Assembly: GCA_946699065.1 (NCBI GenBank) | Contig: CAMPDV010000947.1 | Span: 98,183-162,182, forward strand | DNA from: Loxodes magnus | Taxonomy: Eukaryota; Ciliophora; Karyorelictea; Loxodida; Loxodidae | Direction: 5' to 3' | Length of the DNA stretch: 64,000 nt | Translations under genes and position numbers: made by a program | Notes under the pieces: generated by a model | What the model saw: the letters and a program-made list of their open reading frames with translations, nothing else | What the model was told of the DNA's origin: nothing | The model's database searches: none | Part shown: piece after piece, positions 1-50,490 of the stretch | Position numbering within the stretch: the first letter of the stretch is position 1 | Layout of the letters: each line of letters starts with the position of its first letter

Positions 1-3000
1 ATACTCAACTAGTGTGACCACTCATGGTCTTACAGGTACCTGTCTTGACGTCCCATAGTCTCACCGTATAATCTGCACTTCCCGATACGATGAACTCTGA
101 ATCACTGGATATAGCCACAGATGATACTCAACTAGTGTGACCACTCATGGTCTTACAGGTACCTGTCTTGACGTCCCATAGTCTCACCGTCTTATCTGCA
201 CTTCCCGATACGATGAACTCTGAATCACTGGATATAGCCACGGCATATACATTACTAGTGTGACCACTCATGGTCTTACAGGTACCTGTCTTGACGTCCC
301 ATAGTCTCACCGTATAATCATAACTTCCCGATACGATGAACTCTGAATCACTGGATATAGCCACAGATCATACATGACTAGTGTGACCACTCATGGTCTT
401 ACAGCTACCTGTCTTGACGTCCCATAGTCTCACCGTATAATCATAACTTTCCGATACGATGAACTCTGAATCACTGGATATAGCCACATATCATACATGA
501 CTAGTGTGACCACTCATGGTCTTACAGGTACCTGTCTTGACGTCCCATAGTCTCACCGTATAATCATAACTTCCCGATACGATGAACTCTGAATCACTGG
601 ATATGGCAACAGCATATACATAATCTATATGGCCACTCATGGTCTTACAGCTACCTGTCTTGACGTCCCATAGTCTCACCGTATAATCATAACTTTCCGA
701 TACGATGAACTTTGAATCACTGGATATAGCCACGGCATATACTTAACTAGTGTGACCACTCATGGTCTTACAGGTACCTGTCTTGACGTCCCATAGTCTC
801 ACCGTATAATCATAACTTCCCGATACGATGAACTCTGAATCACTGGATATAGCCACAGATCATACAGAACTAGTGTGACCACTCATGGTCTTACAGGTAC
901 CTGTCTTGACGTCCCATAGTCTCACCGTATAATCATAACTTCCCGATACGATGAACTCTGAATCACTGGATATGGCAACAGCATATACATAATCTATATG
1001 GCCACTCATGGTCTTACAGCTACCTGTCTTGACGTCCCATAGTCTCACCGTATAATCATAACTTTCCGATACGATGAACTTTGAATCACTGGATATAGCC
1101 ACGGCATATACTTAACTAGTGTGACCACTCATGGTCTTACAGGTACCTGTCTTGACGTCCCATAGTCTCACCGTATAATCATAACTTCCCGATACGATGA
1201 ACTCTGAATCACTGGATATAGCCACAGATCATACACAACTAGTGTGACCACTCATGGTCTTACAGGTACCTGTCTTGACGTCCCATAGTCTCACCGTATA
1301 ATCATAACTTCCCGATACGATGAACTCTGAATCACTGGATATAGCCACAGCAGATACCTAATTTGTGTGACCACTCATGGTCTTACAGGTACCTGTCTTG
1401 ACGTCCCATAGTCTCACCGTATAATCTGCACTTCCCGATACGATGAACTCTGAATCACTGGATATAGCCACAGCAGATACCTAAATTGTGTGACCACTCA
1501 TGGTCTTACAGGTACCTGTCTTGACGTCCCATAGTCTCACCGTCTAATCTGCACTTCCCGATACGATGAACTCTGAATCACTGGATATGGCAACAGCATA
1601 TACATAATCTATATGGCCACTCATGGTCTTACAGCTACCTGTCTTGACGTCCCATAGTCTCACCGTATAATCATAACTTTCCGATACGATGAACTTTGAA
1701 TCACTGGATATAGCCACGGCATATACTTAACTAGTGTGACCACTCATGGTCTTACAGGTACCTGTCTTGACGTCCCATAGTCTCACCGTATAATCATAAC
1801 TTCCCGATACGATGAACTCTGAATCACTGGATATAGCCACAGCAGATACACAACTAGTGTGACCACTCATGGTCTTACAGGTACCTGTCTTGAAGTCCCA
1901 TAGTCTCACCGTATAATCATAACTTCCCGATACGATGAACTCTGAATCACTGGATATAGCCACATATCATACATGACTAGTGTGACCACTCATGGTCTTA
2001 CAGGTACCTGTCTTGACGTCCCATAGTCTCACCGTATAATCATAACTTCCCGATACGATGAACTCTGAATCACTGGATATAGCCACAGATGATACTCAAC
2101 TAGTGTGACCACTCATGGTCTTACAGGTACCTGTCTTGACGTCCCATAGTCTCACCGTATAATCTGCACTTCCCGATACGATGAACTCTGAATCACTGGA
2201 TATAGCCACAGATGATACTCAACTAGTGTGACCACTCATGGTCTTACAGGTACCTGTCTTGACGTCCCATAGTCTCACCGTCTTATCTGCACTTCCCGAT
2301 ACGATGAACTCTGAATCACTGGATATAGCCACGGCATATACATTACTAGTGTGACCACTCATGGTCTTACAGGTACCTGTCTTGACGTCCCATAGTCTCA
2401 CCGTATAATCATAACTTCCCGATACGATGAACTCTGAATCACTGGATATAGCCACAGATCATACATGACTAGTGTGACCACTCATGGTCTTACAGCTACC
2501 TGTCTTGACGTCCCATAGTCTCACCGTATAATCATAACTTTCCGATACGATGAACTCTGAATCACTGGATATAGCCACATATCATACATGACTAGTGTGA
2601 CCACTCATGGTCTTACAGGTACCTGTCTTGACGTCCCATAGTCTCACCGTATAATCATAACTTCCCGATACGATGAACTCTGAATCACTGGATATGGCAA
2701 CAGCATATACATAATCTATATGGCCACTCATGGTCTTACAGCTACCTGTCTTGACGTCCCATAGTCTCACCGTATAATCATAACTTTCCGATACGATGAA
2801 CTTTGAATCACTGGATATAGCCACGGCATATACTTAACTAGTGTGACCACTCATGGTCTTACAGGTACCTGTCTTGACGTCCCATAGTCTCACCGTATAA
2901 TCATAACTTCCCGATACGATGAACTCTGAATCACTGGATATAGCCACAGATCATACACAACTAGTGTGACCACTCATGGTCTTACAGGTACCTGTCTTGA

Positions 3001-50490: not shown

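Follow-up and report, generated by a model that had tools for sequence, protein, structure and literature searches.

All three classical stop codons are very probably read as amino acids, whichever amino acids they stand for, in a tandem array of WD40 repeats that occupies the whole stretch of Loxodes magnus DNA analysed here (64,000 bp, hereafter the window). The sense-reassigned stops proposed in an earlier sequence-only reading of this DNA are upheld, because TGA lies in the top W columns of homologous repeats, TAG lies in their top Q column, and the standard codons for W and Q are missing from these columns of the array. The nuclear code of the host would most likely be of the NCBI table 27/28 type, with TGA = W and TAA/TAG = Q. 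The array would belong to a recognition gene that encodes a WD40 beta-propeller, or act as a donor reservoir for such a gene, and the stops would be translated, with real termination solely near the 3' end of the transcript.

A 123-bp tandem repeat was detected by TRF at positions 7-64000 of the window (520.2 copies, 94% match). The array occupies all of the window, in which neither a flank nor a second gene was seen and no tRNA genes were found. The WD40 profile PF00400 matched 22 stretches of a 902-aa product with approximately 721.5-721.6 bits, families of WD40 propellers in Pfam matched as well, and the best solved relative was PDB 2ymu, a WD-40 repeat protein (E-value 1.4e-138 with a 164-aa stretch). 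The single-sequence structure model of seven units was all beta but of low confidence (mean pLDDT 66.5, pTM 0.63), and the other four structure models reached mean pLDDT values of 34.9-48.1.

The minus strand was read by cyclic alignment using the column numbers (1-41) of the sequence-only reading. The alignment contained 23 indel steps in the window, of which one was located at position 62599 and 22 within positions 50491-54964 (Table 1). About half of the steps in this patch (12 as we read them) were a base doubled or dropped inside a homopolymer run, and the patch looks like an unpolished sequencing, long-read or assembly error. The array itself runs past position 50490 up to 64000, and 50490 is merely where the error-like patch starts. 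Positions 1-50490 were free of indels, which bears out the single frame that had been implied for them, and these 50.4 kb without an indel support the sense reading. Every frame counts as open once no codon is a stop, so openness alone is no proof. Each of the other five frames has at least one column that is a stop in at least 397 of the 409 units, however, which leaves the WD40 frame as the sole candidate.

Table 1. Features of the WD40 array and in-frame stop codons by column.
Feature	Position in window	Strand	Detail or basis
Tandem array, ~520 units x 123 bp, one 41-residue WD40 repeat per unit	1..64000	minus	TRF, Pfam, PDB match
Indel-free stretch, one reading frame, 409 complete units at 119-50425	1..50490	minus	cyclic alignment
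Patch with 22 single-base indel steps, frame broken	50491..54964	minus	cyclic alignment
36-unit block, identical to 10205-14632	15002..19429	minus	lag 39 units
36-unit block, second copy of 15002-19429	10205..14632	minus	exact repeat, lag 39 units
Column 17 TAG example, read as Q in D-Q-T-V-R-L-W-D if TAG = Q	30941..30943	minus	unit starting at 30991
Column 40 TGA example, read as W in V-W-S-V-A if TGA = W	30749..30751	minus	unit starting at 30868
Column 38 TAG example, read as Q in H-T-N-Q-V if TAG = Q	30509..30511	minus	unit starting at 30622
Column 17 stops			TAG 38 (502 units)
Column 38 stops			TAG 60, TGA 43, TAA 16 (502 units)
Column 40 stops			TGA 247, TAA 18 (502 units)
Exceptional stops outside the three columns			TGA 1 at column 13; TAA 1 at column 15 (502 units)

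Stop codons were counted over the 502 indel-free units out of 520. TAA, TAG and TGA are all frequent in frame, as had been noted (424 in total), and 422 of these stops fall in columns 17, 38 and 40, where six codon/column combinations recur (TAG in column 17; TAG, TGA and TAA in column 38; TGA and TAA in column 40) in agreement with the at least six combinations described before. The description of stops as confined to the three columns holds for 352 of the 353 in-frame stops in the range it covered (the long frame with its 409 units, window positions 1-50490) and fails for one unit, which starts at position 6514 and carries TGA at framework column 13 (6476-6478, GGA to TGA) as a private variant. 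The unit with TAA at column 15 belongs to the error patch, and no stop was found in the remaining 36 columns of the 502 units. With one or more stops in 326 of the 409 long-frame units and at most four consecutive stop-free units, a seven-blade propeller is unreadable in the standard code. The longest table-11 ORF in the window has 180 aa and ends at the column 17 TAG at 30941..30943 (minus strand).

The variant counts are based on 481 units. The 21 units without indels that lie in the patch were left out, and with them the TAA at column 15 and one CAA at column 38. In this set 45 variant states are recurrent and six are private, and TGA accounts for 279 of the 19,721 codons (1.4%). TGG does not occur at columns 38 or 40 and CAA/CAG does not occur at columns 17, 38 and 40 in any of the 481 units, which contain 128 TAA/TAG codons versus a single CAA/CAG at column 35. 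The stop columns had also been described as those that vary most. This is true of columns 38 and 40 in so far as 8 and 4 alternative codons, respectively, recur there, but 5 do so in column 37 and 3 in each of columns 15, 17 and 41, and columns 15, 37 and 41 are without a recurrent stop.

Variable columns with stops might also be expected of a non-coding satellite or pseudogene with the standard code, that is, a WD40 receptor array amplified after loss of function in which columns prone to mutation acquired real stops that were then copied. A comparison of the stop counts by column with a neutral model, which the sequence-only reading had proposed, was carried out by a simulation without unit copying (4000 runs), keeping the observed number of states per column and starting from a sense ancestor with TCT at column 40. 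In 29% of the runs no stop appeared outside columns 17, 38 and 40 (P = 0.29), a result that a satellite can accommodate, and the lack of stops in other columns, taken alone, is a weak case for the sense reading. Six or more stop states in the three columns were obtained in only 0.05% of the runs (mean 1.3, P = 0.0005), even though hot columns had been kept hot; this excess is not explained by column variability and is telling. The earlier statement that the pattern is not expected of random decay therefore stands for the six-state excess and is weak for the stop-free columns taken alone.

The same conclusion was reached when equal weight was given to the 28 reachable stop states, each of them one step from a recurrent sense codon. 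The five recurrent alternative stop states were all among the 8 in columns 17, 38 and 40 (P = 0.0006, a value that leaves out TGA at column 40, itself the commonest codon there), whereas a satellite should show stops at any of the 28. None of the 20 reachable states outside these columns was recurrent, and apart from the single TGA at column 13 codons one step from a stop elsewhere stay sense in the 481 units, much as had been observed. These P values are guides, since neither model allows for common ancestry of the units, gene conversion or biased mutation. Purifying selection on the framework (the 33 columns remaining after the eight variable ones were set aside) is weakly and marginally indicated by 7 synonymous versus 9 non-synonymous recurrent states (P = 0.049), and the six private variants seem to be under no constraint (they include no synonymous change and one stop in a framework column); both of these observations would suit a satellite, in which block copying would moreover multiply any stop. 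A dead satellite should on the other hand gather stops and indels everywhere, which is at odds with 50.4 kb without an indel, and the coincidence of the stops with the W and Q columns of homologs would be left without a reason. We consider a satellite or pseudogene unlikely; the array may nevertheless be silent at present.

Homologous WD40 repeats were used to examine what the stops would stand for. The control homolog loci were found using a stop-free query (28 loci, 26 with usable units) and come from nine genomes, all of which had originally been found by a W/Q-read query and were searched again. Units were aligned to an HMM in which the variable columns were masked, replacing a regex harvest that gave just 13 units. 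A filter for W22, H35 and variable columns without gaps retained 228 distinct units from 332 aligned stretches. W was the commonest residue at column 38 (75 units) and column 40 (54 units), with R second at both, and Q was the commonest at column 17 (68 units). Besides W22, which the filter required, columns 38 and 40 were the two richest in W, and column 17 was the richest in Q (0.298), narrowly over column 8 (0.289). The log-odds for TGA were 9.1 bits for W, 3.0 for R and 1.2 for C, and W was best in all 1000 locus bootstraps. For TAG they were 3.71 bits for Q, 3.62 for W, 2.4 for R and -0.95 for E, with Q best in 550 and W in 448 of the 1000 bootstraps. W scores best at both columns that hold TAA (38 and 40), and the meaning of TAA consequently leans on known codes.

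Ten codes scored on one 902-aa stretch were not told apart by the general WD40 model of Pfam. PF00400 gave 726.0 bits with TGA read as R, 721.6 as W, 715.8 as S, 710.6 as C and 695.6 as G, and 725.1 bits with TAA/TAG read as K, 724.4 as R, 721.6 as Q, 717.0 as E, 711.7 as Y and 707.4 as W. The slight lead of TGA = R and of TAA/TAG = K or R, the second rank of R behind W in columns 38 and 40 of the homologs and the failure of the TAA columns to discriminate would all be compatible with a sense reading in which TAA/TAG encode E (as in the Blastocrithidia type) or K/R, or TGA encodes R or C. Such an assignment, which lies within the sense reading as a whole, appears improbable given the log-odds from the closest homologs. 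The assignment TGA = W is fairly supported by the homologs although the general model does not single W out, TAG = Q is weakly indicated by them, and TAA = Q is the most likely meaning by analogy with known codes.

Among the nuclear codes in which all three stops are sense, that of Blastocrithidia has the meanings E/E/W, and we know of no all-three-stop nuclear code with R or K as a meaning. All three stops are sense in Condylostoma magnum and Parduczia, where TAA/TAG/TGA = Q/Q/W (excerpts of PMC4967479), and the Q/Q/W code is likely for Amoebophrya ex Karlodinium (parts of PMC12005148 and PMC6394959), which also speaks against other assignments in the array. Loxodes magnus itself is given table 27 in an excerpt of PMC11441545. 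The array resembles what is expected of tables 27/28 (karyorelict ciliates such as Parduczia and Loxodes, C. magnum, and the syndinean Amoebophrya ex Karlodinium) in having all three stops inside one frame, in columns that W and Q fit, and in how densely they occur in frame, with no 3' end visible. It differs in that its Q would be nearly all TAA/TAG and in that its share of TGA is more than ten times that of C. magnum and Parduczia (1.4% versus 0.042% and 0.120%, respectively, from the excerpt of PMC4967479). The latter counts against the preferred explanation, as does the GC content of the window, which at 44% is higher than the 33.5% reported for coding sequences of L. magnus in part of PMC11441545.

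The homologs, control units included, were bacterial WD40 proteins (cyanobacterial and others, loci L004-L066) that have the same repeat; in the control set W was the commonest residue in columns 38 and 40, as was Q in column 17. They differ from the array in using the standard code and in having open frames, with an internal stop in just two among the matches listed, and were approximately 37-58% identical to the array product in the best segments. Neither a plasmid DNA search with a 1354-base piece of the array nor a search of viral contigs for an exact 27-base pattern gave a match. At the protein level three loci were found in viral contigs (49-51% identity) and two records in phages by tblastn (30.0% and 31.5% identity). 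One of these phage records, Salicola phage SCTP-2 (MF360958.1 92254-93912), has a hypothetical protein that matches the array product at 30% identity in two pieces, which together cover 97% of the 902-aa query.

Stops at the places where W and Q are expected, together with the absence of TGG and CAA/CAG from columns 17, 38 and 40, could also have arisen through C-to-T decay (RIP-like or by deamination of methyl-cytosine) of standard TGG and CAG/CAA codons to TGA, TAG and TAA, and RIP strikes NACHT-WD40 pseudogenes in Podospora according to a section of PMC1805685. However, the W22 codon is TGG in all 502 units (481 of 481 outside the patch) and never TGA or TAG, and RIP-like decay was rejected on account of this invariant TGG. 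Moreover, 18 of the 41 columns are invariant over the 502 units, including the cytosine-containing codons TCC, GAC and TTC, and the alternatives at column 17 are AAG, GAG and TAT, not CAG. The WD repeats of the RIPped pseudogenes were themselves mostly spared, which the authors credit to exchange with active loci (same section of PMC1805685). C-to-T decay of either kind is thus regarded as highly improbable.

The units of the array have a mean pairwise identity of 94%, and the 409 in the long frame represent 101 types arranged in a mosaic order. The 36-unit repeat (Table 1) is a recent block duplication; in addition, a 15-unit block is repeated at a lag of 56 (units starting at 47350 and 40462) and an 8-unit block at a lag of 24. 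Mosaic order and block repeats fit a shuffling of units through unequal exchange or conversion, and unequal crossing-over together with conversion may have reshuffled the units throughout the array. Columns 38, 40 and 41 show just 18 codon combinations in the 481 units, and a stop at column 38 is never combined with one at column 40; these three columns are therefore taken to be inherited as blocks.

The HNWD receptors of fungi (HET-D, HET-E and HET-R, of the NACHT-WD40 type) have a repeat unit of 42 residues compared with 41 in the array. The four columns 15, 17, 38 and 40 of the array hold 18 of the 45 recurrent variant states (binomial p = 8e-8), or 13 of 40 when stops are excluded (p = 7e-5), and three of the four contain all the recurrent stops; columns 37 and 41 are variable as well. 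Columns 38 and 40, together with columns 15 and 17 in the following unit, have the same +2, +16, +2 spacing as HNWD codons 7, 9, 25 and 27, which in the Podospora repeats are under strong diversifying selection around the conserved codons 8 and 26 and lie on the face of the propeller used for protein interaction (parts of PMC1805685 and PMC2873952). The conserved codons correspond to V39 (kept in 502 of 502 units) and D16 (497 of 502) of the array. Variation in the array is therefore concentrated at the spacing of the ligand-contact sites selected in WD40 immune receptors, and selection may likewise have diversified surface residues here. Both systems consist of near-identical, shuffled WD40 units, and W, Q, S and Y occur at the presumed equivalent of column 40 in a portion of the table in PMC2873952. 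The array differs in its size (~520 units versus 69 in the whole family of the S strain of P. anserina, according to part of PMC1805685) and in having stop codons at variable sites; neither a NACHT nor a HET domain was present within the 64-kb window.

A single protein of at least 16,800 codons from this array would be extraordinary, and this also counts against the preferred explanation. It is conceivable, if decidedly improbable, that the array, in a genome lacking any dedicated stop codon, is one gene of more than 400 WD40 units with ambiguous codons as binding-surface residues, in which inner poly(A) sites produce a ladder of receptors of varied lengths and specificities. With TGA in over half of the units and read as W just when far from the poly(A) tail, an inner polyadenylation site would make a proper end nearby.

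In Tetrahymena, where TGA remains a stop, young tandem arrays of shuffled repeat units are likewise present, but these encode LRR instead of WD40 domains and introns split their exons. These are LRR gene arrays with 90-bp exons, and WD40 is among the domains of species-specific genes, according to part of PMC6564038. The assemblies of L. magnus contain 231 Mb (MAC) and 359 Mb (MIC) of low-complexity tandem repeats, as stated in an excerpt of PMC11441545. A description of a giant WD40 array in ciliates or as a satellite was not found by word searches of the open-access literature (best 12 of 1,407 and 12 of 63). The type of code is thus already known, and as far as these searches show a WD40 array this large with ambiguous codons at the recognition face is new.

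If all three stops are read as sense in the array, codons that end the chain elsewhere would here form the variable alphabet of a recognition surface, and TGA would be used more than ten times as often as in two ciliates with an all-sense code. The array would then show how context-dependent termination handles hundreds of TGA codons in one transcript. It would also be a warning that standard gene finders would throw out such genes, whose longest table-11 ORF here is 180 aa, as satellite DNA.
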